From assembly GCA_015179125.1 (NCBI GenBank), contig WHVA01000593.1, positions 1 to 64,000 on the forward strand: a stretch of DNA of 64,000 nt, in the 5' to 3' direction. How positions within the stretch are numbered: position 1 is the stretch's first letter; every line of letters begins with the position of its first letter. Position numbers and translations under genes: made by a program. Of the stretch, positions 2,136 through 64,000 are shown piece by piece. Source of the DNA: Gautieria morchelliformis (taxonomy: Eukaryota > Basidiomycota > Agaricomycetes > Gomphales > Gomphaceae). Below the pieces are notes generated by a model, which saw only the letters and a program-made list of their open reading frames with translations, was not told the origin of the DNA and made no database searches.

Positions 2136-5100
2136 TCAGCAGAGATGCCATGTGAGCTCATCTTGCAGCCCTTGGAAAACAGCATGAGTGGAAGAAAGTA
2201 TGGAATGCTTGGTGGTTGACATCTGGGTGGTAGCATCACGAAAACAGCACAGCCATTGCATCACAACCTTGATACCTTCCCAGTCTTCTGGGGTCATTTC
2301 GTAAGCGCGCAGTTCTTTGTTTTTTTTTGCCATGTAGTTGTCCACATCTTGCTGATAATCTAATGCATGACCTACAGGACTGTATGAGCAAATAGTGTGC
2401 TAGGAGGATGAAGGGTCGCACGAAGCATTTGGTGTGTCGAAGACCAGCGTGTCTTGACATCAAGTATAAGCATTTTGGCGATCTCATCTCACTCCTGATT
2501 AGTTGCCTTGTTGTGTATGGATGTCTCAACCTCCTCCAGCCATAGTCGTCATCTTTGAGGGCTGGAACGCACAGCGCACACAATCCTGCGAATCTGGAAG
2601 CAGGCTGAATTTATTACCGCAGAACATGTTAAAGACACACACCTTAGCTACTGCACTCAGTACAGGTCCCATGTTGTCATCACCTTCTTCCAGATCATCT
2701 TTCTGGGTTACAATGTCTGCATCTGACTCTCGGTTGACTGGCAGTGTGACCCCATCCTGATAATTGCTTCATTCCGCGCCTCGCCTCTGTGATGCGGTAA
2801 AGGCACCCAGACCCTCAAGCAACTAAGGGGAAAATGATACCATGCATAATATGGAAGGGACTGATTCTAACTGCGTACCTTCAGGGCAGCTAAGTGAACA
2901 GTGTGATGGATACAGCGCATCTGCGCCTTGCTTGCTGAAAACTGAATCCCTTCTTTTGCACATAACATACCCAGAGATTCCATCATAGTGTCATTGTTGC
3001 TGGCATTGTCAGCAACAATGGCTTGGATCTATAAGCTGCATTGGTGTCATAGAGATTGGTGAAAAGGTGTAGAGCAGACATACCCGTCCTTTTAGGCCAT
3101 ACAATTCCAGTGTTTTCCACACTGACAGAGCCATGTTCTCTCCCGAGTGCTCACCGACTAGTTCCTGAAAATCTATCAACACTTCTTCTACTCGTTCCAA
3201 ATGTTAGGTGGTGGGAGGCATCGTCGACTGGTGATACTCGTACCTAAGTCCCAACTGTTAGACACATAGTGCATGACTACAGCCAGAAATGCGAAACCAT
3301 TGCTGGATGTCCATGCGTCAAGCGACAAGCTTACTTTGCCTGCGAGGTCCTAGTGGTAGTCATTGAGTCAGCCAACGTTGTATGTTTCTGGTTCTGTGCA
3401 TGCCCACCATAATAAACTGCTTCATTGTATCAACAGTAGACTCGCCCATCTTCGTCACACGCCGCTTGATGGCAGTAGCACTGGGGATATGCAGCAGTGC
3501 TGAGGAATGGTGGGTATGGTGCATTAGCGCCTTAAACTCGGGTTTTTCAACTTTGTCAAAAGGCTGGTCACACGCAACCTGCCACTTGACCAACAGCTGC
3601 TCGAACTTGCTTTGATCCCAAGGAACCTAGATCCAAAGGTCCATACACCAAGTGAGCACATTGTTCCTATGCAATATATTGCTCACACACGCACCTCATT
3701 CTTTGCCACTTGACGCGAGAATGCTGCACGCAGGGGGCCCTGGTTGACTTCCAAGGTGCAAAGATATTCTTGAGCTGTTTTTGAATTCAATGGGATCTTG
3801 TTTGCCGCAAATTGTATCTCTTCCACATAGGTCTCTGATCCTGATGGCGTTTAATTGATTGATACAACCGGAACATTTCAGGAAAGTGAGTCTGTAAGTG
3901 CATTACCAGACCTGCACCTGTCAATTGCGCTGCACCATGGGGTCCATACATGTTCATACCATTTTGCGATCCCTTCATTTTCTTCATTACAGTCAACATC
4001 TTCCGCTTACCATGGTAACAGCGATAATGCTTGTCTCCTGGTTGCCCGTTTCCTTCAGCATTATTTGCTACAATTTCATAGAAATGGTAAATCAGGGGCC
4101 CGGTAACACCAGCAACCAGCATCTGTGTGAATTATATTGGTAAAATTTCTACTGGCTAACCTCTTTACACACCCGTGGATCAACATCACCCCCATTGCTG
4201 GGTTCTTGGGCCTCCGTTGTCTTAACCCTTTTGACAGGGGGCTCACAATCTCGAGTGGTGCATGGGTGTTCATCAGCTGCTAATACCTTGTCATTTATGC
4301 GCTGCGAAGGTTTCGATGCAATGCATTTCCACTTCTTGCCCTCATTCTCAATTGCCATGTTTGCTGCCTTGGCAGCAATCCATGGCGCAGAGTGGTTCCC
4401 AGCTTTGGTAATTGTTTCTGGAATGGTTTTACGAGGAAGAAGATCTGCGAGCTGTCAACTCTTGAGTGCGGTGGCCACGTTTTTCCTCTCAAATTGATAT
4501 ACTTACTTCCTCATTAGGAACAAACTCATTGGTATCGCTTGCCGAACTACACACCCCACTACTTCCCTCTTCAACGTATGCAGAGGAGCCTCTAGGTGAG
4601 TCGACATTATTCTCTAAGATCTCAAATGCATTCTTGCTTCTCGTTGACCCTGGGAAATTCACGGCAGGATCCTGCATCATTCCATGACTCTTCTGCCCCT
4701 GTGCTTTGGCTCTTGCTGTTGCGTTTGCATCTGCAGCCTGTTCGCAAAGCTGTAGTTGCTTATTTGGCTGGTGAGTTCGACGACTTCTGCCCTGTGCGGC
4801 AATGAAACCGCTGTCTTCAGATCCACCTATCAACCTGTCAGGGTTTTATGACACATTGGACCATGTACCAGCAACATCTTTATTTTCTGCCATGGCTCCA
4901 GCTGCCTTGGCCGCCACACGCAAAGTATCGATCCACAGTTTCATGAGGTCAGTGGCAGGGTTCTCTTCCTTTTTCATCTCATCCAAACACCAGCGCACCA
5001 ATGCGACCGTCTGCATCAAACCTGACCCTTGCTCAGTCAGCTGAATACCACTTGACTTCTCCCCAAACGACGCATGCATGGCTTTGTTGAATGCTGGCCA

Positions 5101-41355: not shown

Positions 41356-41617
41356 CTCATATGACTAAGACGACCAATGGATGTCATCGATCCACACCGC
41401 CACCTTACACGGTGAGATGTATGAGGATGGGAAAAGATGAACATGAGGAAGCGGAAGGGATTATGACCTAAAATGCAAGTTACAGCCCCTGGCTGTGCAT
41501 GAGGATTTGATTCTATGCCGATCCTAGATAGCCTTAGTAGAGGCGTCATGTCATCGTGCGTATTACTGTAATTTCTGGATAGGAAACGCGAGAAAGCTCC
41601 TAATTCGGCGTACTAGT
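41356..41617. other. spacer between CACTA A and Tc1-type element
   Basis: About 260 bp of unassigned sequence. It starts with the right target duplication CTCA of element A and ends before the TA of the Tc1-type element. Confidence 0.6.
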
Positions 41618-41619
41618 TA

Positions 41620-42310
41620 CACCCGTTTGCAGTACCTAAGGCGCGCGTCGGATTTGCTTCCGTTTTAGCGCGCAAACTTCGAACAATGATATCTTGCTTG
41701 ATATCGCTCCGATTCGCTTGAAATTTCATATCTGAAGCTATGTGGACCATAGCTAGGGCATAGAACTAAAAAATCCGAATAAAACAAGCATTTTATATTT
41801 TGCATTTTGGGTGCTGAGGGGGGAACAATGTCAAGCTTAGCTTACTGTATGTAGTTCAATGCAGGTTTTAATTTTGTTTGCTACTTTGTACTAATGGTGA
41901 GAACCCACTACAGGAGAATCTCCAGAAGAGGGTGTCATAGGATTGGAGAGGAAGGGCTTAGCTTCTTCTGACATTGGATCAGTGAGATCTGACGGTAGGC
42001 GTTCATTCTCAATGTCGGATTTCCTCCTGTGTAGCATAAGCCCCGAAATCTTTGATCCCTTCCGCACCGAGTGCCAATGCACCATAAGGCAACTTCGCCG
42101 ATCCTGACACGTTCTTGAGCTCGGAAACCGCGGGGGCGCACACGTATGCGGTGGGGTGAGGGGCGCGGAGGTGCTGGGGTGGGCGAGCTGGTATAGGAGG
42201 ACGGGGTGGTGGGGGAGCGGGCGGCGGCGGGTGCGGGTGCGGGTGCGGGTGCAGGTGCGGGTGCAGGTGTGGGTGCAGGTACGGGTGCAGGTACGGGTGC
42301 AGGTGCGGGT
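41620..42310 (+). repeat. left long inverted repeat of Tc1-type element
   Basis: Reverse complement of about 45780-46469. On the minus strand it encodes VSELKNVSGSAKLPYGALAL, as the right arm does on plus. The inner end runs into GGGTGC-type hexamers. Confidence 0.88.
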
Positions 42311-42935
42311 GCGATTGCAGCACGGACGACACGGAGCTCATCGTGAGGAGACTGGGCATACGGTTAGCAGGGTGCGGGGGCGTCGACACACCTTGACACC
42401 CAGGGGACTCCACGCAGGGGACATGGGGGATACCGGCCCAAACGGCAGCCGGTAGAGGGACGGGAGCGCGGACGTGACACGACTGGGCTGGCGGCCCTCG
42501 AGGCGTGCGAGGACGTCGCCGCGGTTGGTGTTGCGGTAGCGCGTGGAGGCGCGGGACGTGGCGGTGGTCATCGCGGGGGTGTTGACGGTAGGAGTGATGG
42601 AGCCGCGGTCGGTTGGGGTGCGGGTGGACGACAGGAAGGAACTGCTCGTGCTTGTACGAGTAGAAGGGGCGCTTCAAGTCACAATGGTGGACTTGTAGTT
42701 GGGACGCGTGACAGCCCTTTCAGCGAGGATGTAAAGTAAGCATAAGTAGCAAACTCACCAATAAAAACGGGATAGTGGCCATTCGACACCTGAAAATTAC
42801 ACTTGAGTTGGGGTTCAGCATTGGGAGTAAGGGTGCAAATGCTGTCGCACGATTCATGTCATAGAATTCTTGGTCAGGGTGTGTGTTTCGGGAACTTCCG
42901 TTCTCCTTGTATGTACTACCCACACCATCGCTCAT

Positions 42936-44141
42936 ATGCCTCGCCCTGGCAACCCTAACCCTGTTCGTCACATGTACAGCAAGGATCTGCGGGATCGCGT
43001 TATACAGCAAAAATTCAAGCTCAACAAGAAATCAACTGATATTGCAATTGACCTCGATATGTCACTACGTGTAGTTCAACGCACAATCAAACTCTGGCGG
43101 GATGTTGGAGACGTCGTGGCAGAGCCAAAGCGGCTATCTCATGGGTCAAAAATGACCTCAGCTCAGAGTGAAGTAAGTAATTCATGTCTGTGTTTAGCTG
43201 TAGCTTATTTTATTTTATAACAGTTTCTTCTTGCGCTTCTTGAACGCTCGCCCGATCTTTACCTCGATGAGCTTGTCGAAGAGCTAGAGGTGCAGCATGG
43301 TATTTTAGTAAGTATATCAACTGTCTGGAGGACGCTTCGACATCTTGGCTTGCAAAGAAAGAAAGTGAGTCATTAAATCCTCGAAGAATGACAACCTTTA
43401 TATTTGTCTCCAACCCCGCTTTCACGGGCAGCCGCAGAGCGCTGTGAAGCCTCGCGGACTGCTTTCCAGTTTCGTATTGGTAGTGAACCACCGGACCGTT
43501 TGGTTTTCACAGATGAAAGCGCAATTGACCTTCGCACAACGTATAGACTAATGGGATGGGCTTACAAGGGATGTAGGCCTCGAGTGCGAGCACGTTTCCA
43601 AAGGGGCGAAAGGTAACGATTTGTGCACGGGCCTCCATTATTGTATCGCTAATATCCACTCAGATTTTCAATCCTTCCGGCGCTCTCACAAGATGGAATC
43701 ATCTATAGCCATATCAAATTAGGGGCATACGACGGTCCAGAGTTCCTTGGGTTTCTGAAGGGCCTTTTAGAGGTAATGAACCCTTACCCGGCACCACAGA
43801 GCGTTCTTGTTATGGATAACTGCGCCATTCACCACATACCTGAGGTTTCACTCTTATGTGCCCAAAGGTTTTTACCATTATAAACTGTTTTCACTAGTGT
43901 CTAATCTTGCATTTGCAGAGGAATCAAACTGATGTATCTTCCGCCGTACTCGCCCGATCTCAACCCGATCGAAGAATCATTCTCCTTCATCAAAGCTCAC
44001 CTCAGACGTCATGGTGCCGAGTTCCGTGCATGTGTTGCAAGTAAGGAGAGGGCTGAGCTATTCATGTTTCTCTACGAGGCACTGGATCGGATTACACGCA
44101 GACATGCGCGAGGGTGGATGAAGGACTGTGGCTATCTGTAG
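42936..44141 (+). CDS. Tc1/mariner-type DDE transposase
   Basis: Cut-and-paste transposase. ATG 42936 gives MPRPGNPNPVRHMYSKDLRD, followed by a helix-turn-helix with KKSTDIAIDLDMSLRVVQRT. The intron 43173-43223 has GTAAGT and CAG ends. The second exon has LYLDELVEELEVQHGI and STVWRTLRHLGLQRKK, the paired-like second half. After another short intron come FQFRIGS and VFTDESAIDLRTTY (first catalytic Asp). Then follow an intron near 43613-43662, FSILPALSQDGIIYSH, SVLVMDNCAIHH (second Asp), an intron near 43850-43918, and YLPPYSPDLNPIEESFSFIK (Glu), ending at CGYL. All three catalytic positions are present. Exon joins near 43365-43430 and 43850 are approximate. No stop was seen in a conserved block. 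Confidence 0.82.
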
Positions 44142-44352
44142 TGCAGTTGTACTACTGTAATGTAATTTTTTTGTTGTCAGAATGTTGAAAATTATCTGCA
44201 ATGTGATGGATGATATTGGTAAACAACACTTAGTAGTGCAAAAAGTACTCATTGGCCAATTACGTGCGTCGAGTATCGTAGTATTGTGATAATTCCTACA
44301 GTGGCTACAGGATCTCATAATATTATATGCGTTACATGCGGTCTTTCCCAGC

Positions 44353-45010
44353 TCATCCTCTCTCTTCACCTGTCATTTCCCCCTCCTCGACTCTCTCTTC
44401 ACCTGTCATTTCCCCCTCATTAACATAATCCCAACTCTCTGGCAGGTCTGAAAGAGATTCAAGCCCAATCGTTACATACTGCTCGTATGGCTTGGTGGCC
44501 TGTAAAGTGTACTCATCGGTGTTCACCTTAACGAAGTCTGGTGTCAGCCATTCCAGAGCAGTCTCCCGAGAAAGCGTTAACCATTGAATCAAGAGTTTGG
44601 AGAATGGCTTGAAGCCCTTGGAGAATTCTTTCGCGGCATCCTGTTGCTTTAACCTATCAAGGAAACTTCCCCTAGCTTGTAACACAGATAACTCGTCGGA
44701 GAGCATCGTTTGACGGTAATTCTGTTCTAGTCGCCCGAGTGCCCCCTTGGTCTCCAGAATCTCCAGAATCGACCAAAATAAAACCCATATAAACGACTCC
44801 AGGTCATCAATTACTTGGTGCACAACTTGCGTTCCAGAGTCCCAAGCAACAATCAGCGCCTGAGACATGAAAGGCAGCGTACCCTAGAACCATGTAAATC
44901 ACAAGCCGCACACAGCAACTAAAGACCCACCGAGCCTCTCTTGGTTCGGCACTCGTCTTCCATATGAACTTGCCCCGGGCTTCGAAGCATCCGCTGACCC
45001 TGTTCTTCAA
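44353..45010 (-). pseudogene. FunK1-type protein kinase C-lobe fragment (cargo)
   Basis: The C-terminal part of a fungal FunK1-family protein kinase. Exon 45010-44927 ends in AEPREARW, and a 43-nt intron (44926-44884) follows. The second exon reads GTLPFMSQALIVAW, then VIDDLESFIWVLFW, the HDDLES-type helix of this family, and continues to a stop at 44353. The N-lobe and the catalytic loop are absent, since the sequence upstream of about 44970 no longer resembles a kinase. The fragment lies inside the Tc1-type element between the transposase and the right inverted repeat, in opposite orientation. The C-terminal tail carries a short repeat, GEMTGEERVEEGEMTGEE. No kinase activity can be expected. 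Confidence 0.72.
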
Positions 45011-45179
45011 TCACGCCTTTTTGCTTAGCTCCACAGGCTCGCCGTCAAGTACCAGCTGCTCCCTGTCAACTCCCCCATAACCCCAGTGGCCAACTTCGGT
45101 GAGTATCCCGGCCCGTATTCCTCATACCAGGGTGTCTGACCACTCAACTCCTGCAGAGCGCCACGGCCCAGGCACATTC

Positions 45180-45880
45180 GTGTCCCAGGGCACGCGTACC
45201 TGCACCCGCACCCGCCGCCGCCCGTTCCCCCACCACCCCGTCCTCCTGCACCAGCTCGCCCACCCCAGCACCTCCGCGCCCCTCACCCCGCCGCGTACGC
45301 GTGCGCCCCCCAGCACCTCCGCGCCCCTCACCCCGCCGCGTACGCGTGCGCCCCCCGCGTCCTTCGCGTCGTCGCCCAACCCGTCCCCGCACCTGCGCCC
45401 GTACCTGCACCCGCACCCGCACCCGCTGCCGCCCGCTTCCCCACCACCCCGTCCTCCTACACCAGCTCGCCCACCTCCGCCCCCGCGTCCTTCGCGTCGC
45501 CGCCCAACCCGTCCCTGCACCCGCACCCGCACCTGCACCCACACCTGCACCTGCATCTGCACCCGTACCTGCGCCCGCACCCGTACCTGCACCCGCACCC
45601 GCAACTGCGCCCGTACCTGCACCCGCACCCGCACCCGCACCCGCCGCCGCCCGCTTCCCCACCACCCCGTCCTCCTACACCAGCTCGCCCACCTCCGCCC
45701 CCGCGTCCTTCGCGTCGCCGCCCAACCCGTCCCTGCACCCGCACCTGCACCCGCATCTGCACCCGTACTTGCACCCGCACCCGTACCTGCACCCGCACCC
45801 GCACCCGCACCTGCACCCACACCCGCACCCGCACCTGCACCCTCACCCGCACCCGCACCCGCCGCCGCCCGCTCCCCCAC
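45180..45880. repeat. hierarchical GC-rich minisatellite
   Basis: Three repeat levels are visible. Hexamers of CACCCG/CACCTG/TACCTG type fill 45390-45430, 45515-45650 and 45735-45865. A 45-bp unit containing CACCTCCGCGCCCCTCACCC occurs twice at about 45268-45357. A unit with CACCACCCCGTCCTCCTACA and CTCGCCCACC, TCCTTCGCGTCG recurs at about 45230, 45440, 45660 and 45880. All plus-strand frames are open and Pro/Ala/His/Arg-rich, which is a by-product of the repeat. Confidence 0.85.
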
Positions 45881-46469
45881 CACCCCGTCCTCCTATACCA
45901 GCTCGCCCACCCCAGCACCTCCGCGCCCCTCACCCCACCGCATACGCGTGCGCCCCCGCGGTTTCCGAGCTCAAGAACGTGTCAGGATCGGCGAAGTTGC
46001 CTTATGGTGCATTGGCACTCGGTGCGGAAGGGATCAAAGATTTCGGGGCTTATGCTACACAGGAGGAAATCTGACATTGAGAATGAACGCCTACCGTCAG
46101 ATCTCACTGATCCAATGTCAGAAGAAGCTAAGCCCTTCCTCTCCAATCCTATGACACCCTCTTCTGGAGATTCTCCTGTAGTGGGTTCTCACCATTAGTA
46201 CAAAGTAGCAAACAAAATTAAAACCTGCATTGAACTACATACAGTAAGCTAAGCTTGACATTGTTCCCCCCTCAGCACCCAAAATGCAAAATATAAAATG
46301 CTTGTTTTATTCGGATTTTTTAGTTCTATGCCCTAGCTATGGTCCACATAGCTTCAGATATGAAATTTCAAGCGAATCGGAGCGATATCAAGCAAGATAT
46401 CGTTGTTCGAAGTTTGCGCGCTAAAACGGAAGCAAATCCGACGCGCGCCTTAGGTACCGCAAACGGGTG
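45780..46469 (-). repeat. right long inverted repeat of Tc1-type element
   Basis: The partner of 41620-42310. The outer about 550 bp are nearly identical; the inner part differs in number of CACCCG/CACCTG hexamers. Confidence 0.88.
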
Positions 46470-46471
46470 TA

Positions 46472-47492
46472 AGACATGGGGCACGACGACATGGTATCCG
46501 TGACATGGTGCATTCGGTGTATCAGCTATCTGGTGATGTAGAGCTGTTCTCGGTGCCCGAGGGGGGATCGATGCGACGTGGTTGCAGTTTTATAACTTAG
46601 TATGGTGCTTTGCCGTCATCCGATAATTAGATTGGAAAATTGTGTAACACCGTACAGTATCCACAGCACTGTTCCATTGAATTTCATGATGGTTCCTTGC
46701 ATTGCGTGATCGACGATTCTGAGTGAAGAGAGCGTGGCCGCCAGACTAAGATACACAGCAGACCGACCCTGACTCGTCAGTTACAACGAGCAGCATGACG
46801 GACACGGACACATGTGCAGACACGGACAAGGACAACAAGCCACGACATTGTCATCTTTGCATGGTAGGCACATGTCGCCACTCGCCCCGTCCTTTCATCC
46901 ACTCCTTCATCTTTCACGGCATTCCCACGTGTTTTACCCGTCCACTCCAGAGGTCAGTTCACCTCCCCCTACATATAATTATCCTCTGACACCTGAGTGA
47001 AATTATGCACGGTCATGATGGTTCATTCTCCCAGTTGGTTGAAGAAGCTCGATCAGGGATGCTCATGCTCACCCGAGCCGTTATTTCTCTTCAGCGATAG
47101 CATCATGTAATGTGAGAGTCTGTGATGGATCAGGGACAATTCCTCACGCCGATGATAATAAAGTTCGCTCTGGCAATCCTACTCATTATATTCGTAAGTC
47201 CTAGCTCCACCTCGTCGCAGTGGTATACCATTGCGGCACGTACGTATAAATATACTTATACTATGCATATATTTACATGAGTTACTGAAAGCAAAACCAA
47301 CTCACAAGCATCGTTATCATCGTATTATAAGTGCGCTCGCTTAAATATATACTTGCACATTTACTCCTAGGCCAGCTGGAGGGGGCACACATGATCCCGG
47401 AGCTCACATCCTTGGACTGATGCTCGGATATTGGAAAAGTGGGCGAGTATGACATCTCTAGATTTGGGGTAGTCAAATAAATCTGCCAGTGT
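46472..47492. other. interval right of Tc1-type element
   Basis: About 1 kb with at most one small gene (46795-47099). Otherwise nothing recognised. Confidence 0.4.
46795..47099 (+). CDS. possible small spliced gene, unknown
   Basis: A weak candidate. ATG 46795 opens MTDTDTCADTDKDNKPRHCH, then GTAGGC at 46864 could be a donor. A Pro-rich stretch STPEVSSPPPTYNYPLTPE follows (46944-47000). The frame SEIMHGHDGSFSQLVEEARS ends with a stop near 47099. Each piece looks protein-like in composition, but the joins are not demonstrated and no family is recognised. Confidence 0.2.
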
Positions 47493-51785: not shown

Positions 51786-53103
51786 CTAGAGATCGCGAGC
51801 GATAGCCTCGAGAGCATTACTAGCCAACACTTTAGCCAGAGGCTTCTTAATGCCCGCTTTCTCTTCAATGGAAGAGACCAAGTGCGCTGGTGGAACTGCG
51901 AAGGCCGTGTCCATGAGCCACTGGGCCCATTTCATAGTGTCCCTGCCGCCTGGGAAGTGAACGCTATCTACCATATTGAAAAGTGTGGCAGGCACTGTGA
52001 GACACTTGTGCCGAGCTGGCTGTTGGTCAACGGCTGTATCAAGCTTGAGCTTGAGCCAGGCGTCAAATAAGGAATCTGGGATCATCGAAGGGTTCTCAAT
52101 CGCATTTGGAGTCGTTGTGGAAATGATGGTTGCGCTCCCGGATCTGGGAGCATGGGGTTTGTATCCCTTGTCCAGCTTGTTCACTGGAGATGCCGCTAAC
52201 TCCGTGGATTCTGTACAGCGTCAGTGCACAGTATTGACACTAGACATTAGATAACTTACCGACTCGGGTGTGATACCTGACCTCGACGACCCTTTTTTTC
52301 CAGTTGGAAGTCCAAGGCAAAGCAACATCGCATACAAATGTCTCTGCCAACACGATTATTGCGTGGCGGTAAGGGGAGACATTGTCCCCAGGGATTATTA
52401 CCGTGTTATGCCTGAGTCGCATGCCACTGATGTCACTAGGCACCACCTTGGGGTCGTGCTCTGGATGAGTCGCTATAAATACGCATGCTGAGCCCGTCAT
52501 GTTGTTGTAGACAGCAACCTACAATGTACATAGGGAGATGGGTGTCAAATGTAAGGATTTCCAACAAGAGAAAATCACATACGAGATCGTTTATGTCACG
52601 TAACAGATCCAAACGCACATGTGTGCGTTCATCGACGTGAAAAATCCAACCTGGTGGCATTTGGCGTGTCATTGTTGGATCCCATCTCTGTGATCCAAAC
52701 CCATAGGCGCGTCTGCGCCTCTCGCCAGCGATGGCAGCAGTAGTCAGTACTATGCCGTGGGTCTCCTGTTCTTCAATCCAGCGCTGGATATGGTCCAGAC
52801 CAAGGGACTCGATAGCCATAGCCGGCGGCCCAGGAATGTTGATGAAAGTAGCAGGCAGGTGATCATGGCCGTAAATCATTGTGGGACAAGGAGAGCTGTC
52901 AGCGAAAAGCTTGTCGATGAGGGGAGTGATCGCGTGAGTAGCTTAAGATGTGTTGTCACGTCTGTCACAAGGGCTGACGCAGCTTGAAGCACGCACGAAT
53001 CGCGACGGGAATCGCCTACATTGTGAAGGGTGGGTACGTCAATGAGAGTCTGCCCGGGGGCAATGCCGCCGCAGTGTGTGGTGAGTGGCGTGGTGCTGTT
53101 CAT
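51786..53103 (-). CDS. hypothetical protein, unknown family
   Basis: A multi-exon gene. ATG 53103 gives MNSTTPLTTHCGGIAPGQTL and ends exon 1 near VLQAASALVTD. A 50-nt intron (about 52958-52909) joins to FADSSPCPTMIYGHDHLPAT, then MAIESLGLDHIQRWIEEQET, RRRAYGFGSQRWDPTMTRQM and HVDERTHVRLDLLRDINDL. After an intron near 52575-52520 come ACVFIATHPEHDPKVVPSDI and RHAIIVLAETFVCDVALPW. After another intron near 52257-52215 the last exon has NKLDKGYKPHAPRSG and FPGGRDTMKWAQWLMDTAF, ending at 51786. No signal peptide or membrane segment seen. Not recognised. Its first exon and upstream region are duplicated just to the right (about 53215-53382). Confidence 0.6.
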
Positions 53104-53382
53104 GCCACTGAACGTCAGAACCCGATCACAGCTATATAGGTGATCCTACGTACCCGAGAGATGACGAGGCCCTCGCTTCTTCCTTTGGGCTGATTACGGA
53201 TTCCCATCCCGAAAACAAGGCGACGTCAGGTGCATGTGTGGGGACGTCAATGAGTGTTTGCCGTGGGGCAATGCTGCCGCAGTGCATCATTCGCGGCGTG
53301 GTGCTGTTGGGACCACTGAACGTCAGAACCCGATCACAGCTTTATGAGTGATCATACGTACCCGAGAGATGACGAGGCCCTC
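53018..53382. repeat. tandem duplication of a first exon and promoter region
   Basis: About 53018-53175 and 53215-53382 are direct copies. They share GACGTCAATGAG-like sequence, GGCAATGC(C/T)GCCGCAGTG, CACTGAACGTCAGAACCCGA, TACGTACCCGAGAGATGACG and AGGCCCTC. The second copy stops exactly where the gypsy LTR begins. Confidence 0.85.
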
Positions 53383-54073
53383 TGTTACGACCGATCATTT
53401 CCGGCTTCCGACTCTCAGTTCCGCCACACCTTCCGCCCCTCCAATATTTCCGCAACACATTCCGCCCCTCTGACATTTCCGACATTCCGCCCCTTGTACA
53501 TTTCCCTTGTTCTTTCGACTCTATTACTCGGACCCACCGGACCCACCTCGCCATCCATCAAAACCACATATCCGGTCACCCTTGTAGTTCGTTGTCAGAT
53601 ATGTTTTCCCGACCCCTTGTTCTTTGCCATTGTTCTACCTTACCCTGAACCCCCCTTGTAGTCCCATTGTTCCCAATTAGTTAGTTCCCACACATTGTAC
53701 TCGACTTCCGCTTCCTCCGGAATTTGCTTAGTACAACACCATTACTTGTTGCTCTGCGCTTTGTATAAAAACCCTCTCATGTATGTCTGTTATTCTCCAA
53801 TCAGATAATCACCTTCGATACTTGATTTCCTTCGCTCCATCTCCTGTTCTTAGCACAGCGAGTTTAGCAAGATCTCAGTCTCTCTCAGTCTTCCGCCTTC
53901 CGCCTTCCACCTCAGTTCCGACACAAGTTCCGACCAAACCTTTGGTCCAGTACTTTCCGACTTCCGACTCAGTTCCGAAATACTTAGGACGATAGTTCAT
54001 TGGGGGCACAACCTATAAGTTGAAGCCACTGTCCTTTCCAGTTCCGACTTAGTGGAAATCTCGATACGTAACA
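53383..54073 (+). repeat. gypsy 5' LTR
   Basis: Contains a TATAAAAA box near 53764 and a run of TTCCG pentamers (seven within 53890-53979). Confidence 0.92.
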
Positions 54074-54106
54074 GTATTATCTGATTCCCACCCGATAACT
54101 ATCACT

Positions 54107-55495
54107 ATGCCTCCTCGTACCACAGCTACTTCAGCTCGAGCAGGAGCTGTCGAAGCTCTCTCTTATTTTGGCAGTCTTAGATCCGCAGCACCAAGGCACG
54201 CGGAACCCTCCAGCAGCTCTCGTGCCGACGATGAGCTTTCCGATGCTTTTCCGCAACGATTCGAAGAAGTTCCCGACGCTAATCCCGACGAAAATCCCAA
54301 CTATGACGGGAATTCGACAAGTAGCAGCGGCGAACAAACAGCAGCGTCATTCCAACGCCCAGCTCCACCACCACCACCTCCACCAGGACCACCTCATGGC
54401 GGCCCACCCGGCGGTCCTCCACCTCCAATTCCACCTCAGATTCCCGCCAACCCAGTTCCGCCCGCGCCAGTTCCGGATCTTGCAAAAGCCATCGCCATGC
54501 TAGCTGGTCAACTCCAGCGCCCGGCCCAAGCACCACCACGCCCCAAGACAAAGGTCCGCGAACCAGATCAGTTCGACGGTTCCGACCCCAAGAAGCTTCA
54601 GCCATTTCTGGTCCAGCTTCAACTCAACTTCCGCGATCGTCCTGACGCCTTTCCCGACGACGAACGAAAGGTCAATTATGCCCTTTCCTATCTCCGAGGC
54701 ACAGCGCTCGACTATTTCGAACCCGCCCTCATGGATCCGTTCGCTCTCGTCGACTGGGCCGACGATTACCCCAATTTCATTTCCGAACTCCGCAGTAACT
54801 TCGGACCATTTGATATGGAAGCCGATGCGGAAAACGAACTCGATAAGCTTCGCATGAAAGACACTCATAAGATAGCTAAATATATCGTCACGTTTCAGCA
54901 GCTCGCTCCTCGAGTCCAATGGGGAGAAGCTGCACTCCGACGCCAGTTTTACATGGGCTTGCCATCCCGCATCAAGGATGAAATTGCCCGCGTCGGAAAA
55001 CCCGCCACTCTTACCGACCTCCGCAACCTCGCCCAATCCATCGATTCGCGCTACTGGGAAAGACACTCCGAGATTGCTCGCGAAACTTCCGCCCAGAGCA
55101 AAAACGACAAGTCTTCCGACAAGAAGTCTGATAAAGACAAGAAGAAGACTAATTCCGGAAACAACAACTCCGGAAACAACAACAACAGTTCCGGATCCAA
55201 CTCCGGCAACCGGAACAACAACAACTCCACCCCTCGCAATAACCAGGCCTCTGGTTCCAACACCAATGCCCGGAAGAGCACTCCGGACCTTTCCGACAAA
55301 CTTGGGAAGGACGGAAAACTAACCCCTGTAGAACGCCAGCGTCGCATGAACAACCTTTGCCTCTTCTGCGGCAAAGGAGGTCACGTCGCTCGCGACTGCA
55401 CTCGCGCTTCCGCCTCCGCTGCTAAGGCCAAGGGCCGCGCAGCAAAGACGGAAGAGAAATATGAAGCGGTTCCCGATGCGGATTCAAAAAAATAG
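54107..55495 (+). CDS. gypsy gag protein
   Basis: A 462-residue open frame starting 34 bp after the LTR. The N-terminal third is Pro-rich and disordered. The capsid-like core covers about residues 140-330 (FDGSDPKKLQPFLVQLQLNF, YALSYLRGTALDYFEPAL). A Ser/Asn/Lys-rich linker follows, then one CCHC zinc knuckle, CLFCGKGGHVARDC, near residue 418. Length and order fit gag of basidiomycete chromoviruses. Pol follows directly. Confidence 0.88.
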   Translation: MPPRTTATSARAGAVEALSYFGSLRSAAPRHAEPSSSSRADDELSDAFPQRFEEVPDANPDENPNYDGNSTSSSGEQTAASFQRPAPPPPPPPGPPHGGPPGGPPPPIPPQIPANPVPPAPVPDLAKAIAMLAGQLQRPAQAPPRPKTKVREPDQFDGSDPKKLQPFLVQLQLNFRDRPDAFPDDERKVNYALSYLRGTALDYFEPALMDPFALVDWADDYPNFISELRSNFGPFDMEADAENELDKLRMKDTHKIAKYIVTFQQLAPRVQWGEAALRRQFYMGLPSRIKDEIARVGKPATLTDLRNLAQSIDSRYWERHSEIARETSAQSKNDKSSDKKSDKDKKKTNSGNNNSGNNNNSSGSNSGNRNNNNSTPRNNQASGSNTNARKSTPDLSDKLGKDGKLTPVERQRRMNNLCLFCGKGGHVARDCTRASASAAKAKGRAAKTEEKYEAVPDADSKK

Positions 55496-55499
55496 TCAG

Positions 55500-58400
55500 C
55501 AGTCCTCCGGCCTCCGCACGAGCTGAGGGCTGTGTTGACCCCATTCGTGCGACAAACGAGGTTAAACTCAACGCATCCGCTCTTTCGTCCTCCGACTCCC
55601 TCTCTGTTCCGCTCACTTCCGACACCATTTCCGCACCCCCGTTTACAGCACTGGTCGACTCCGGTTCGACTCATTGTTTCCTCAATTCCGACTTTGTTTT
55701 GAAACACAAACTTCCGACCCGCAACATTCCGACAATTCCACTCCGCCTTTTCGACGGGTCTTCCAACACGGGAATTTCCCAAGTTGTGGATCTGTCTATC
55801 CGCTTCGCTACTGGAGACAACCATGAAGTTACGTTTTACGTTACTCCGCTAGATGCTAGCTGTTCCGTTGTACTAGGACACAATTGGCTCACCCGATATA
55901 ATCCGTCGATTAACTGGGCATTGGGTCAAATACAGTTCCGTACCCCAGATCAACTTCCGTCTATTCCGACGTCATCCGCAAAGATGGCCAGGCCTCTTCT
56001 GCAACTCCGCTCGTGGATTCAGTTCCGCATTCCGGTCCCGCTCTAGCACCTCCGCCCCTCGAAGCTCCTCGAATTGCACTCGTTTCCGCCACCGCTTTCC
56101 GCGTATTGCAACGGCAAAATGATACGACCGTTTTCCAGCTTCACCTCTCTGACTCAGTTTCAGTCAAGGCTCGTTCCGCCTCGACTTCCGCTCCGGTCGA
56201 CATGAGCTCAGTTCCGGAAGAATATCGCGACTTCCCGGACGTGTTCAATAAAGCCAAAGCCGACAAACCTGCTGAACATCGACCTTACGATCTGAAGATA
56301 GATCTGGAAGAAGGAGCATCTCCGCCCCTTGGACCAATCTACTCTCTTTCGCAAAGTGAACTCCTAACTCTCTGCGAGTTCGTCGATGAACATCTCAACA
56401 TGGGCTTCATACGCCCTTCGCTGTCTCCGCACGGCGCTCCAGTCCTCTTCGTCAAGAAGAAGGATGGATCTCTCCGCCTCTGCGTAGATTTCCGCGGACT
56501 CAATGCCCTCACTAAAAAGGACAAATATCCGCTTCCGCGCATTTCCGACTTACTCGACACTCCCCGCAGGGCGAAGATCTACACCAAAATTGACCTCCGG
56601 CACGCTTATCACCTTGTCCGCATCAGGGAAGGTGACGAGTGGAAAACCACCTTCCGCACCCGCTACGGTGCTTTTGAGTGGACTGTCATGCCTTTTGGTC
56701 TAACCAACGCTCCCGCCGCTTTTCAGCGATTCATGAACGACGTATTTTCCGACCTCCTCGACGTATGCGTCCTAGTCTACATTGACGACATCCTCATCTA
56801 TTCCGACACACCGGAAAAACATCGGGAACATGTCCGCGAAGTACTCCGCCGTCTACGCAAACACCATCTCTACGCAAAAGCAGAGAAATGCGAATGGCAC
56901 GCGACACGGTCGAATACCTCGGCTACATCCTCTCTCCAACAGGTCTTACCATGGCAGAGGACAAGGTCAAGGCAATTCAAGAATAGCCGGAACCCCGACG
57001 TGTTAAGGATGTTCAGTCTTTCCTTGGCTTCGCCAACTTTTACCGGCGTTTCATTTATAATTTTTCCGACATTACTGTTCCGCTACGCGTCTCACCAGGA
57101 AGGGTGCCCCATGGAATTTCACTCCGGAATGCCGTTCCGCATTTGAAGCTCTCAAATCGGCCTTCACCACGGCTCCCGATACTCGGTTTCTGGATTCCTG
57201 ATGCCCAACTTGTACTCAAACCGACGCTTCCGACTACGCGCTAGCCGCCATTCTTTCCATCATTTCCCCGACGACGGAGAAATTCATCCGATCGCCTTTC
57301 ATTCCCGCACCTTTTCCGCCCCGGAACTCAACTACGATGTCCACGATAAGGAACTACTTGCGATTTTCGAAGCCTTCAAAATTTGGAGACACTACCTCGA
57401 AGGTCCAACTTATCCGATCGACGTTGTAACGGATCATAAGAACCTTGAGTATTTGCAACTACTAAGATTTTGACTCGCCGTCAAGTCCGCTGGTCTGAAT
57501 ACCTCTCACAGTTCAACATGGTGATCCGCTTCCGCCCCGGAAAGCTCGGAGCAAAACCCGACGCGCTCACTAGACGTTGGGACGTCTACCCAAAAGAGGG
57601 AAGTAGCGACTATGCCAGCGTTAATCCGCACAATTTCCGCCCAGTATTCTCTACTGAGCAACTGGCATCGTCCCTGCGTGCCACAGCATTGCAGTTTCCG
57701 CTACTCCGCGCCTCAATTATTATGGACACCGAGTCTCTCCATTCCGACATCCGTTCCGCACTCCGTTCCGACCCCACCTCCGCAGCCCACCTCGATGACC
57801 CCACCAGTCCTGGATGGTCCCTCGATTCCGACGGATTTCTCCGGTACAAGTCCCGGATTTACGTTCCGGATACCAACGATCTACGACTTCGCGTACTTCA
57901 GCAAAGCCACGATCATCCGCTCTCAGGACACCAAGGCCAGAACAAAACCCTCGACATAATCCGACGCACCTATACTTGGCCCTCCTCCGCACGATGGTCC
58001 AAGACTACTGCAAGTCATGCACCACCTGTATGCGAGCCAAGCCTCAACGTCACAAACCCCCTCCTGAAGCAACTTCCGATCCCGGAACAACCGTGGAATT
58101 CGATATCCATGGATTTCATTGAGAAACTTCCTAAGTCATCCGGCTATGATACCATTCTAGTGATCGTTGACCGCCTTACAAAGCAGTCCATCTTTATTCC
58201 GACCTATGACACCATAACTTCCGCCCAGCTCGCACAGCTCTTTGTGCTCCACGTCTTTTCCAAGCACGGAATACCTTCCCATGTCACTTCCGACCGTGGA
58301 TCCGAATTCGTGTCATCCTTTTTCCGCACCCTCGGAAAGGCTCTCGACATGAAGCTCCACTTCACTTCCGGTTATCACCCCGAAGGAGACGGACAAACGG

Positions 58401-59190
58401 AACGTACTAATCAGACCCTTGAGCAGTATCTCCGCATCTATTGCAACTACCAACACAGCAATTGGTCCGACCTTCTTCCGCTCGTGGAATTTGCCTACAA
58501 CAACGCGCCTTCCGCTACCACCGGAATTTCACCCTTTTACGCCAACAAGGGCTACCACCCGAATCTCGCCATCCACCCGAACGCGACCTCGCCTCTGCAA
58601 GAGCCCGAGATTTCGTTGTGGAACTCGACGACCTTCACCAGCACCTCCGAGAGAAATTACAGCTGCCCAGAAGAGATACCAAACTTCCGCCGATCGGAAA
58701 CGCCTTCCGCAACCGGCATTCGAGATAGGCGACAAAGTCTTTGTCAAAGCTGAAAACTTCCGCACCACTCGTCCCTCGAAGAAGCTCTCTGAGAAATACC
58801 TCGGTCCTTACGAGATCATCGCTAAGGCCGGCAGTCGTTCTTTCACCCTCAGACTTCCTGACAATATGCGCGCAGTACATCCGGTATTCCATGTCTCCAT
58901 GCTTGAGCCCGCAGTTCTGAATACAATTCCGAATCGAGAACAACCTCCACCTCCGCCAGTCGTCATCGACGGAGAACCAGAATATGAGTTTCGGAAATTC
59001 TCAACTCCAAGCTCGACAGAAGATACCGCTGCCAACTCCAGTACCTAGTCAAGTGGGCAGGCTATGAAAACACCGACGAAGAGACTTCCTGGATTTCCGC
59101 CACGGAACTTGATCACGCCTCTGACCTCGTCTCTGATTTCCTCAAGTCATATCCTGACAAGCCTGGCCCCATTTCCGCGCCCTAGTCAAT
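55500..59190 (+). pseudogene. gypsy pol region, broken
   Basis: A decayed pol of a chromovirus. Visible parts in order are the aspartic protease region (about 55590-55950), reverse transcriptase (about 56290-57000, with [20 protein letters not shown] and [11 protein letters not shown]), RNase H (about 57190-57470), and integrase (about 57880-58560, with FIEKLPKSSGYDTILVIVDR and GYHPEGDGQTERTNQTLEQY). The chromodomain is near 59000-59130. Several breaks interrupt the frame. Confidence 0.85.
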
Positions 59191-59326
59191 TCCGACCTCA
59201 TTTCCGACACCCATTGCTTCTTACAATTCTCAAGTCATTATTAAAATCCGACTATTATTCCGATGTGCTTATTTCTGACACTTCAAGAAATTATATTACA
59301 AGTCCTTTGACACCCCTACTCCTCCG

Positions 59327-60531
59327 TCATAGTCTCCCCCTCGACCTCTTTTTCCGCTCCTGGCTCTTTTTCCGCCTCCCTACCTCGACACTCACCAACT
59401 CCGTTTCCACCCTTTCCCTCGTTTCCGCCCCCCCACTCGGACCAGCTTCCGCCCCAATTCCCTGCTCCCGCAGCCACGCATCCATTCGGTCCCGGACCAG
59501 ATCATTCCGCCACCGCATTTCCCGCGTCAATTGCTGCAGGACGGTAGACATGACAGTCATCTGATTCTGAATTGACAGAACCTGATGCTGCTGAACCTCG
59601 GCCATTTCGATCATGATGTCCCGGATTTCACGTTGTTGTTCCCGCATGGCCCTCAGCGACCCGGCAATATCGAGAAGGGGATAGGACATGGTAAATCGGT
59701 TCAGAACCGCCTGTCCCGATTTTCCGGTCACCGGAACCGTTTCCTCAGCCTTCCCTCCACTCGGTCCCGGTTCTGCCTTCGGATTCGATCCTCAACCTTC
59801 TGTTTCTTTCGCTCCAGCCTCGAAGCGCACCCGTCCACTACACAACGCCTTTCTTGTCACGACACTGGTCGCACGACGTTTCCGTGGGTTACTCGACCAC
59901 GTGCATCCGCCCCCTTAGACTCGCATGGGTCGCAGGGAGCTTTTTCCTCATCGCCGTCCCGAATTTTCCGCTTCTTCGTCGCGGATTCTCCGGCCCCAGT
60001 TCGCGCAGTTCAACATCCAACTCAACTTTTCCTTTCGAGCCGTCTGGAATGCGTCCGCCCGACGTTTCCGTTCCGCCACAGGTTCACAGGGGTAGCAATC
60101 TCCTTTTGCTTCCCTTTTCCTTCCGGAGACGGTGTACCTTCCGCCGAACTTTCCGAGTCTGACTCTGACTCGTCACGAACATCATTCTGGGAGAATCTTT
60201 AGTTGATTCAAGAAATTCCGCCGAACATTTCCGACTCACTGTTCCCTTCCCGCTTTCCTCCGCAGCCGCCTTCTCTGCAGCAGCCTTGTCCGCAGCAGCC
60301 TTTCGTGCCGCCTTCCGTTTCCGTTTCTCTTCACGGACGCGCTCCTCCTCTCGCGGCGTTCGCGTTCTTTCCTCTCCTGCTCCTTCCGCTCCTTCTCCCG
60401 ACGTTCTTTCTCTTTCCGCGCAGCTTCCTCAGCCTCGCGTTTTTCGGCCATTTCCTTTTCGCGAGCATATCAGCGAAGTGCTGTTTCATCTCCGCGCTGG
60501 ACATCTTAGAGAAATCTACTGGGGCACTCAT
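59327..60531 (-). pseudogene. antisense accessory ORF remnant of gypsy element
   Basis: Between pol and the 3' LTR the minus strand carries open stretches of protein-like composition. These include MSAPVDFSKMSSAEMKQHFA at 60531, a strongly charged Glu/Arg/Lys coiled-coil stretch just after it, and at 59731-59327 a helical stretch with MREQQREIRDIMIEMAEVQQ. Antisense genes in this position are seen in some basidiomycete gypsy elements. It is broken in a few places. Confidence 0.55.
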
Positions 60532-60652
60532 GATGGAATGGAGAGAAGACGCGTTTTTTTCATCAGCCTATCTTTCGAACTCCGACGCGTTTGTTCACAG
60601 GTCACGTGATCCGACCTGTGGTCTCGCGGGGCTCGACCTTAGAAGGAGATAC

Positions 60653-61334
60653 TGTTACGACCGTTCATTCCGACTTCCGACCCCAGTTCCGCCATACATT
60701 CCGCCCCTCCGATATTCCGCAACACATTCGCCCCTCTGACATTTCCGACATTCCGCCCTTGTACATTTCCCTTTCTTTCGACTCTATTACTCGGACCCAC
60801 CGGACCCACCTCACCATCCATCAAACCACATATCCGGTCACCCTTGTTAGTTCGTTGTCAGATATGTTTTCCCGACCCCTTGTTCTTTGCCATGTTCTAC
60901 CTTACCCTGAACCCCCCTTGTAGTCCCATTGTTCCCAATTAGTTAGTTCCCACACATTGTACTCGACTTCCGCTTCCTCCGGAATTTGCTTAGTACAACA
61001 CCATTACTTGTTGCTCTGCGCTTTGTATAAAAACCCCCTCATGTATGTCTGTTATTCTGCAATCAGATAATCACCTTCGATACTTGATTTCTTTCACTCC
61101 ATCTCCTGTTCTTAGCACAGCGAGTCTAGCAAGATCTCAGTCTCTCTCAGCCTTCCGTCTTCCGTCTTCCGCCTCAGTTCCGATTCAAGTTCCGACCAAA
61201 CCTTTGGCTCAGTACTTTCCGACTTCCGACTCAGTTCCGAAATATTTAGGACGATAGTTCATCGGGGCGCAACCTATAAGTTGAAGCCGCCGTCCTTTCC
61301 AGTTCCGACTTAGTGGAAATCTCGATACATAACA
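60653..61334 (+). repeat. gypsy 3' LTR
   Basis: The partner of the 5' LTR, with the same TATAAAAA box near 61025 and several small length differences. Confidence 0.92.
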
Positions 61335-64000
61335 CAACCTCCCAGTCCAATTCCCTTTGAACCTATGCCGGTACCCGCTTCAGACAACATGGATGTTGAA
61401 CATCCTAGTTTTTTTTGGATCATAACCACCCGGGTCATATGTAGCCTTCGGCGAAGAGTTGAACATAAACTCATCACCTGGAGGCAACGCAAGGGACCAG
61501 TACACTCCTGACCTTCCTCGTATTACTCGTGCTTATCACGCCAAGCTCAACGGTATGTCAAGCTGCTCAGTACTCCTTAAAATATACATTAACGTTAATT
61601 ACTTTTATAGGGCAGATCTGCAATGAGAACGGTGATGATATACCACCTGATACACTACCTCCTCCACGTGGTTCAGACCAGGGACCTGACGACTGGACAC
61701 CATATGCTAATTCCTCGAACTTGAAGTTGCTGACTTCCTGTATCGTCGCAACCAGATGTCAGCCAGGGATATTAACTTCATTCTTAGCCTCTGGGCAGCA
61801 TCCCTTGCTATCACAACGACAAACCACCATTTACAAAAGTCACACACATGTATGACACGATTGACTCCACACCTCTTGGCGATATTTCCTGGGAATCATT
61901 CAGCTTGCAGTATAATGGAGAAATACCTGCAGACAATGTCCCATCTTGGATGGAAGCAGATTATGATGTCTGGTTCCGTGACCCACGTATTCTGGTCCAT
62001 AATCTCGTGTCTAACCCTGATTTCAAATTCAATTTCGATTACACACACCCTTTCAAGAGTGTACTACTGATAATACCCATCGGTTTCGGGATTTTATGTC
62101 TGGGAATTGGGCCTGGAGTCAGGCAGTAGCCATCCCATCGCTCGGATTTTAAAAATCATGCTCATCATTGATTAGGACATTATAGCTGATGATCCCCAAA
62201 CCCATGGCTCAGTCTTTGCCCCATAATACTTGGCAGTGACAAAACTACTGTATCTGTAGCTACTGGACATAATGAGTATTGGCCCGTTTATCTCTCCATC
62301 GGAATATACACAATAATATCTGACGAGCGCATCGCAATGGTGTTGTGCTTCTTGCTTTCCTTGCAATCCCTAAAAGTAAGTTTTATATCTAACCATATTA
62401 TTATTTGCTGACACATCTGTATTTCATTTAGCGACTCATGAATTTCGCGATGATGCTGCCTTTCGTAAATTTCGCCGTCAACTCCTACATTCGTCACTGG
62501 CCAAAATACTCGAACCTCTCAAACCTGGCATGACAAGTCCTGAGGTCATTCGATTTCCAGACGACCACTTCAGGAAGGTTATTTATGGCTTGGCCCTTAC
62601 ATCGCAGACTATCCAGAACAGGCACTGCTCGCCTGCATCGTGCAAGGCTGGTGTGCAAAGTATGTATTCTTTTATGCTGATGGGACACTTCGCTCCTTCC
62701 AGATTGGATAGATGGGAAATGGTTCCGCCACACCTTTGTTACGACCTATATGGCCTTCGTTGGTCAAACCATTAACCCATGGGATGTGCCTGTCAAGAAA
62801 GCCATTAAGGTGATGCAACAGATTTGGGATGCAACTAATAGCCACGAGTACGAGATAACATCTTCCACCGCAGTCTATCAAAAAGTATGTGACTGGCCCA
62901 TTTCGGGAATGACACTTATTCCCATACTACAGACTATTCAACGCCTCGCTGACTCGTGGCGAAATGTTATTGGTTCCACTGCCATTGCGATCCTTCTGGC
63001 ATTTTTGACTCGCAAGAGCACTTACAAGATTCAGATGAAGAACGCCAAGAATTCTGCAAGTATTACCTCGACAGACTTCGCTTTTTGTATGAGGACTCTG
63101 ATCATGCCAAAAATGCAATCAGTGTGTTAAACTGGATGTCATCGTGAAAATCCATCTAATACTAACAAGAACCATTCAGAAATGGAGGGGGCTCTTTCGC
63201 AACCCTTTTGTCCTCCAGACTTTTGCTGCACACCTCACCGCCATCGAAGGTTGCAAGGCAATTCCTGGCCTCCATGATGATGCTAAGCTTGCTGATGCAG
63301 CTACTGGTGCTTTAGGCTTGTCCGCCGCTGCGGTAAGTGTTATCTATTATGCTCAGAGGGTTGTTCTGACCGTTGTTAGGTGGAGAGAGCACTAACTCTC
63401 GTTGTGACTGGCACGTTGACGACTGCGACGGCCCGCGCTGCCAAAGGCAAGATGGTAACTCTGCCTAGGACTATGAACCTCTCTACTGGCAAGGAATCCA
63501 TGCGCCAGACAGGTTTCAGCGATGCATCTTGGGGCTTTGCTTCCGTGCTTTTGCCAAATCGGCACGCGGGCTCAATGACGACAAGTTCAGCCATCTCATG
63601 AATGATGCCCAAGCATTTGTCAAGCCAACTCGCGCACGAAACAGATCTACCAACGTTGCTACAGAAACAACCTCAAGGATGATGACGAACGGGCATGCCT
63701 TGTCGACTACTCCGGCGGCTCCGATTCTGACTCTGAATCAGACTGTAAGTAAACTTCTTCGCCTCCTCAAACCCGACTACTAGGTTGAACATTATCTTAT
63801 TCAGAATCTGTGCCATGGCATGACTTGCAGCAGTCCATGATATTTACACATAGATTCCCACTATTCTCATTTCAATACATATGGCCTGTTACCATGCCAG
63901 ATTCAACTCTGGCTCGTCATGTTTCACCCATTTAGACTCGTTTTTCTACCGCTTTTTTTTTGGGCACTTAATGAATACTTAGCACATTTAGCATGATTAA
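61335..64000 (+). mobile_element. Plavaka-type DNA transposon, truncated by LTR and window end
   Basis: Coding blocks on plus match the Plavaka type of agaricomycete transposase and continue to near the right edge. The left end was not found: recognisable sequence starts directly at the gypsy LTR (coding for PIPFEPMPVPASDNMDVEHP). Confidence 0.7.
61340..63783 (+). pseudogene. Plavaka-type transposase, interrupted
   Basis: Blocks in order are a Pro-rich lead (61340), YHAKLNG (about 61540), RNQMSARDINFILSLWAASL (about 61750), YDTIDSTPLGDISWESFSLQ and YDVWFRDPRILVHNLVSNPD (61848-62030), and FMSGNWAWSQA (62095). Then come HGSVFAPIILGSDKTTVSVA and TGHNEYWPVYLSIG (about 62200-62300), FRKFRRQLLHSSLAKILEPL (about 62470) and EQALLACIVQGWCAKC (about 62620). 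After these come DGKWFRHTFVTTYMAFVGQT (62700-62760), LADSWRNVIGSTAIAI (62950), and the C-terminal region TGKESMRQTGFSDASWGFA (63490). Introns account for some frame changes, but others, for example near 62060-62170 and around 63000, look like real breaks. The N-terminal zinc finger usual for the family is missing on the left of the LTR junction. Confidence 0.65.

Follow-up and report, generated by a model that had tools for sequence, protein, structure and literature searches.

Members of the Tc1/mariner superfamily are usually 1-2 kb in length, and those of its DD34E group, such as Sleeping Beauty and Tc3, have a DDE_3-type domain, an N-terminus resembling a helix-turn-helix (HTH), inverted ends and a TA duplication at the target. 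Here we describe an element with such a domain, such ends and such a duplication and a putative HTH-like N-terminal part, its catalytic D, D and E being in register, in a 64,000-nucleotide (nt) stretch of the genome of the fungus Gautieria morchelliformis (bases 1-64000 of contig C663, GenBank WHVA01000593.1, hereafter the window; the genome comprises 122 Mb in 1113 contigs, and its FunK1 genes and numerous short introns would be in keeping with a mushroom-type fungus). It is very probably a copy, shortened by an internal deletion, of a young Tc1/mariner-type family that is about 8.4 kb long, is present in high copy number and carries a FunK1 kinase gene and a second gene that we call U; this family differs from the DD34E elements in its length, its 0.6-0.7-kb arms, its two extra genes and the TTAA found at nearly all tested ends. 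The preliminary description of the window was right in proposing an element of Tc1/mariner type whose arms are unusually long and whose cargo has host character.

Multi-gene cargo is known from other fungal DNA transposons. The IS3EU elements of rust fungi are described as carrying alpha-kinase and TET/JBP genes (PMC12730594); these, like the Gautieria family, are fungal DNA transposons in which a kinase gene is either convergent with the transposase or opposite to it, and one more gene lies between the two or alongside, but their transposase is of another superfamily, the kinase is an alpha-kinase instead of FunK1 and the word 'mariner' is absent from the text of that paper. The Pack-Mariner elements of rice (PMC8903248) are also mariner-type, contain pieces of host genes and have a TA duplication; they are however non-autonomous, whereas the Gautieria family has its own transposase along with complete genes. 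Turmoil-1 of C. elegans (PMC2572040) is similarly a long-armed DNA transposon, of 5 kb, with inverted repeats of 760 bp and an intron-containing captured coding sequence, but it belongs to the Harbinger superfamily, the capture lies within the repeats and there is one full copy. FunK1 kinases themselves have expanded in several fungi, with no function or mechanism of spread known (PMC3203195, PMC6001611), and in the open-licence PubMed Central literature we found no report of FunK1 inside a transposon. The present family extends multi-gene cargo to Tc1/mariner, and whether FunK1 expansions are transposon cargo becomes a directly testable question in other mushroom genomes.

Further copies with the same ends, which the preliminary description had proposed to look for, are present in number: the 26-nt end, with up to two mismatches, occurs 206 times genome-wide, and the backwards control gave 0. 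A 514-nt arm query returned 310 candidates, of which the best 40 were scored and matched at 98-100% identity. Pairing 116 ends gave 24 elements. Their lengths run from 4.86 to 21.0 kb, with 17 falling in the range 8.2-10.2 kb; none of the 24 is shorter than the window copy, and still shorter ones may exist among the ends outside the 116. Sampling of 20 stretches together with the window yielded 12 two-ended elements and seven one-ended stretches. All 12 possess inverted arms far longer than usual for Tc1/mariner, and they measure 4.9-21 kb, including one with a damaged end and one 21-kb palindrome. Cargo is uniform within the family, different cargo between the same ends not being seen, and the other two-ended copies are longer than that of the window and cargo-bearing rather than short and cargo-free. 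Outside GC-rich repeats the copies diverge by about 1.5-3%. The palindrome (C981:625-22627, L034-L036) consists of two inverted copies of the element between palindromic flanks, with 4.2-kb arms, and is probably an assembly palindrome rather than a real one; it was kept among the 24 pairs, and its halves form separate rows in the selection and open-exon tables used below.

Three genes are present in the full copies: the transposase, an entire FunK1 gene and the multi-exon U. FunK1 and U are both encoded on the other strand from the transposase, with U upstream of FunK1 and the pair convergent to the transposase. The joined FunK1 exons of a full copy match PF17667 at 1.4e-32 (113.3 bits, cut-off 24.1); the four exon pieces of U have no Pfam match. 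In the window copy the last FunK1 exon is open and the other five FunK1 pieces are absent, and the C-lobe fragment that had been recognised between the arms is this same exon, scoring exactly the Pfam cut-off of 24.1 bits (E 1.7e-5). This copy tracks the longer ones to element position 3319 and then resumes about 3.8 kb further on, with 98.6-99.5% identity to four longer copies over the 219 nt up to the junction and 96% beyond it. The coordinates are given in Table 1.

Table 1. Features of the element in the window (positions are those of the window; a dot marks features without strand)
Feature	Position	Strand	Evidence
Complete insertion, T-TA-[element 41620-46469]-TA-A; family copy (full length about 8.4 kb) with an internal deletion	41617..46472	.	
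Left TA of target duplication (target TTAA)	41618..41619	.	empty sites at C196, C208, C548, C189
Left inverted arm	41620..42319	+	98% complementary to the right arm; arm recurs genome-wide
Transposase exon piece 1 (HTH part)	42936..43172	+	
Transposase exon piece 2 (HTH part)	43224..43364	+	
Transposase exon piece 3, first catalytic D; no in-phase GT-AG join to piece 2	43434..43613	+	
Transposase exon piece 4, second catalytic D	43665..43867	+	
Transposase exon piece 5, PDLNPIE motif and stop	43920..44141	+	
Last exon of FunK1 gene, only remnant besides the stretch up to the junction	44356..44883	-	PF17667
Junction left by the deletion (overlap of 3 nt, AGC); about 3.8 kb gone (rest of FunK1, all of U)	44933..44935	.	
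Right inner region, mostly GC-rich short-period repeats; no coding evidence	44936..45769	.	
Right inverted arm	45770..46469	-	98% complementary to the left arm
Right TA of target duplication	46470..46471	.	empty-site comparison

The arms of the window copy (41617-42319 and 45770-46472) are 98% complementary over 703 nt, close to the inverted repeats of about 690 bp read previously, and the termini are mirrored, CACCCGTTTGC...GCAAACGGGTG, with TA flanking each side and the CACCCGTTTGC type at both. For seven insertions, the 200 bp on either side were brought together around TTAA and used as genome queries. Uninterrupted matches were obtained for three of them (the window copy, L037 and L032); for the other four none was present among the matches listed, which were filled by the repeat around L032. 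The window insertion has its empty site at four other places (96-99% identity) and L037 at C404 and C989 (99%, C989 being cut by the contig end), while 35 listed empty places correspond to L032 (89-96%). The L032 element sits inside a high-copy repeat with at least 35 empty places. In the eight empty places that were read, covering all three insertions, TTAA stands once at the join and only TA is doubled on filling, giving T-TA-[CACCC...GGGTG]-TA-A, and TTA precedes 87 of 91 exact ends. The element therefore enters TTAA and doubles TA.

Other types of end were considered. A 5-bp duplication, as TACTC on both flanks of L037 might indicate, was rejected, since TACTC-TTAA-TACTC is already the sequence of the unoccupied site at C404. 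The 4-bp TTAA duplication of piggyBac does not agree with a TTAA that is single in the empty sites with only TA doubled. KDZ elements (Kyakuja, Dileera, Zisupton) have a KDZ transposase and a longer target duplication, of 8 bp; here the duplication is of 2 bp, and the scanned exon pieces gave no KDZ Pfam match. Inner copies of the terminal sequence within the arm, of the Sleeping Beauty kind, were likewise rejected, the matches being weak and local. The inner limits of the arms vary among copies, as the arms run into GC-rich repeats. Two coding features that had been read into these regions did not withstand comparison: the proline-rich coding sequence is a GC-rich short-period repeat with several open frames in which coding is unsupported, and the gene-like open reading frames (ORFs) inside the arms showed no coding signal in 3 minus-strand frames across 36 distinct arm sequences.

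Two other accounts of the locus bear on the preferred reading. The preliminary description held that the window copy had itself captured the kinase fragment in Pack-type fashion, and there is indeed a piece of a kinase between the arms; yet the fragment is collinear with the whole kinase gene of the longer copies up to a clean junction, which identifies it as the remnant of an internal deletion, so that capture by this copy is extremely unlikely. Nor is the window copy of Pack type, as such elements are non-autonomous and without a transposase gene, and all five of its transposase pieces are open. One might also suppose a short Tc1/mariner element inside a segmental duplication of host genes, with only the transposase mobile and the arms and cargo forming a segmental repeat. 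The GC-rich repeats at which the arms end, and their variable inner limits, speak for this, but the empty TTAA sites of three insertions join exactly at the outer arm ends and nearly all exact ends are preceded by TTA, and we give this account very little credence. On the reading of an internally deleted copy of the larger family, the likely course of events would be that host genes supplied the cargo to an ancestor ahead of the current burst, that the element's own transposase mobilises it by a cut-and-paste route and that the window deletion arose by faulty repair, with the cargo now probably being passenger DNA in most copies.

When joined, the five transposase exon pieces match DDE_3 in Pfam at 2e-27, above the cut-off, and HTH_32 (1.2e-7) and HTH_Tnp_Tc3_2 (1.7e-4) at scores that are both under the curated cut-offs. 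The last two catalytic residues are 34 apart in the joined protein (D-D-34-E), a spacing that depends on the splicing chosen, and the best match among solved structures is Sleeping Beauty. The intron-rich transposase with three catalytic residues that had been reported thus stands as an exon-split DDE_3 protein with D, D and E in register, the match to Sleeping Beauty being a weak one (E 0.14).

The arrangement of the three genes recurs across the genome. In one comparison 107 of the 377 candidates from a FunK1 search were scored, the 118 matches were merged to 83 loci and these were set against 132 of 151 DDE_3 matches; 30 of the 83 loci lay at most 8 kb from a DDE_3 match, all 30 of them convergent, so that the transposon explains a good share of the FunK1 copies in this genome. 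A second comparison used 150 DDE_3 matches and two sets of exon hits, 68 for the N-terminal FunK1 exon (from 133 matches) and 91 for the C-terminal part of U (from 157), the remaining rows, diverged ones among them, being excluded. U was found within 4 kb of 60 of the 68 FunK1 hits, in every case preceding the kinase in the same orientation (median distance 312 bp), and eight hits had no U within that distance. DDE_3 lay within 6 kb of 54 of the 68 FunK1 hits, always convergent, and within 8 kb of 61 of the 91 U hits, always on the opposite strand.

As to the origin of the cargo, a stand-alone relative of U is present on C604 (C604:209500-214499; L059:1584-2969), with 72% DNA identity over 1.4 kb, introns included, which is roughly the length of the gene. 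The 5 kb around it contain no long inverted repeat, and any other likeness to the element is confined to weak pieces of at most 27 residues; a nearby ORF (L059:4420-4998) presumably represents a sequence resembling retrotransposon gag. The ratio of non-synonymous to synonymous substitution rates (dN/dS) between U and this relative is 0.14 over 352 codons, with dS 1.4 and thus near saturation, and indicates that, in one of the two lines at least, U functioned as a gene for a large part of the interval. Intact donor genes for FunK1, which the preliminary description had raised as a check, were absent from the best-scored matches listed. There is a second class of FunK1 in the genome, which was considered as a candidate for another kinase-bearing transposon: the 4 kb around C305:19884 (L060, C305:18400-22399) are repeated at nine other places, several sharing contigs, at 92-97% over at least 2.5 kb, and neither a transposase nor element ends were recognised in this 4-kb block. 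Its kinase was rejected as a close donor, being 38-42% alike in short pieces only.

A sister group of transposases carries other genes. With an N-terminal transposase query the window family was recovered mostly at 85-99%, and below it came at least 24 hits at 73-80%, with others more distant still. In a sister copy on C164 (L061:1-1101, C164:11940-13040) the transposase end has 85% DNA identity to the window family and the likeness ends at the transposase stop codon. Beyond this, on the opposite strand, lie a DUF6698 piece (1e-5) and, following it, an intron-containing t-SNARE piece, which matches SSO2 at 8e-9 among solved structures and Pfam families, V-SNARE among them, below threshold only; in the C164 copy it carries one in-frame stop. 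In a search for this stretch the best 40 of 158 candidates were scored, and among these the stretch following the transposase recurs, wholly or in part, at eleven places (C164 being one of them) at 95-99%, while fifteen others share only its first 230-246 nt at 84-92%. Two places on C281 and one on C560 match the t-SNARE part only, from L061 position 822 or 831 (96%), and C226, C743 and C462 match the DUF6698 part only, ending at 823-824 or earlier (87-96%); the two parts join at about L061 position 822-824. A syntaxin-family search gave two N-terminal pieces at the C281 and C560 places and the second piece only at seven sister places, with weak matches throughout (E 1.8e-5 to 0.094). Judged from these alignments, it is most likely that part of the interior of a host SSO1-like gene became fused to a DUF6698 piece and that the two were amplified along with a Tc1/mariner transposase, and the C281 and C560 places are the likely host donor.

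As regards host sources, the sister SSO1-like piece has a likely donor at 96% and U a relative at 72%, and no donor for FunK1 was found among the matches listed. That the sister group holds its DUF6698 and SSO1-like pieces at the same place backs the uptake of genes by this lineage, and repeated acquisition within one Tc1/mariner lineage appears supported. Together, the full copy, the deleted copy and the relative with other cargo provide a natural series for gene gain and loss. We tentatively suggest, as one possibility, that a lineage of large multi-gene Tc1/mariner elements repeatedly takes up host genes downstream of its transposase, that intact FunK1 serves the element and that such elements are one source of FunK1 expansions.

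Several observations weigh against the reading of a gene-carrying Tc1/mariner family. Fourteen of the 68 FunK1 hits have no DDE_3 within 6 kb, nor have 30 of the 91 U hits within 8 kb. The best-scored FunK1 matches listed are close copies only, with no donor found, and the stand-alone relative of U is only 72% alike. On the side of the transposase, the Sleeping Beauty match is weak and the D-34-E spacing hangs on the choice of splice sites; pieces 2 and 3, moreover, give no in-phase GT-AG join in 16 of the 16 copies shown, and the gene model is therefore incomplete. An element that itself ended in TA and inserted without duplication would produce identical filled sites. Finally, the sister copies are presumed elements.

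The extent to which the cargo is maintained was assessed from the copies themselves. In a selection test, changes among 19 rows were compared with random placement, one site's second haplotype being excluded. For changes common to at least two rows the ratio of non-synonymous to synonymous changes (N/S) was 0.51 of expectation in the transposase (P 0.033, one of several tests, uncorrected), and 1.53 in FunK1 and 0.77 in U, neither significant; for singleton changes it was 1.14, 0.83 and 0.98 respectively, none significant. Polymorphism among the 19 rows thus gives no evidence of selection keeping FunK1. Open exons were counted from 20 rows, with one row cut within the first FunK1 piece excluded from the FunK1 count: the transposase has each of its five pieces open in 11 of the 18 rows holding the gene, FunK1 all six in 3 of 14 and U all four in 4 of 12, and one copy has 15 of 15 tested exon pieces open. 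These counts and the low divergence fit a recent burst whose copies are now mostly decaying.

An accessory role of the kinase is nonetheless possible. On a fuller version of this idea, modelled on the proposal for the TET/JBP genes of other fungal transposons, FunK1 and U would both aid the element, the kinase acting on silencing or on the transposase and U being a nuclear partner. The fixed order of the two genes, kept in most copies, points this way, as do the rows with every FunK1 or every U piece open and the dN/dS of 0.14 between U and its relative, though the host side may account for the latter, and the IS3EU account provides a precedent for kinase and TET/JBP genes in fungal transposons (PMC12730594). 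However, the polymorphism of the copies shows no constraint on either gene, and the window copy, at a site that is empty elsewhere, is without both, although its deletion may postdate insertion. We therefore consider accessory function for the pair rather doubtful.

Away from the element, the GC content of the window is 58-61% per 2 kb between 34000 and 38000, compared with about 48-50% on both sides, and from 53000 to 62000 the GC skew is strongly negative, at -0.22 to -0.31 per 2 kb.

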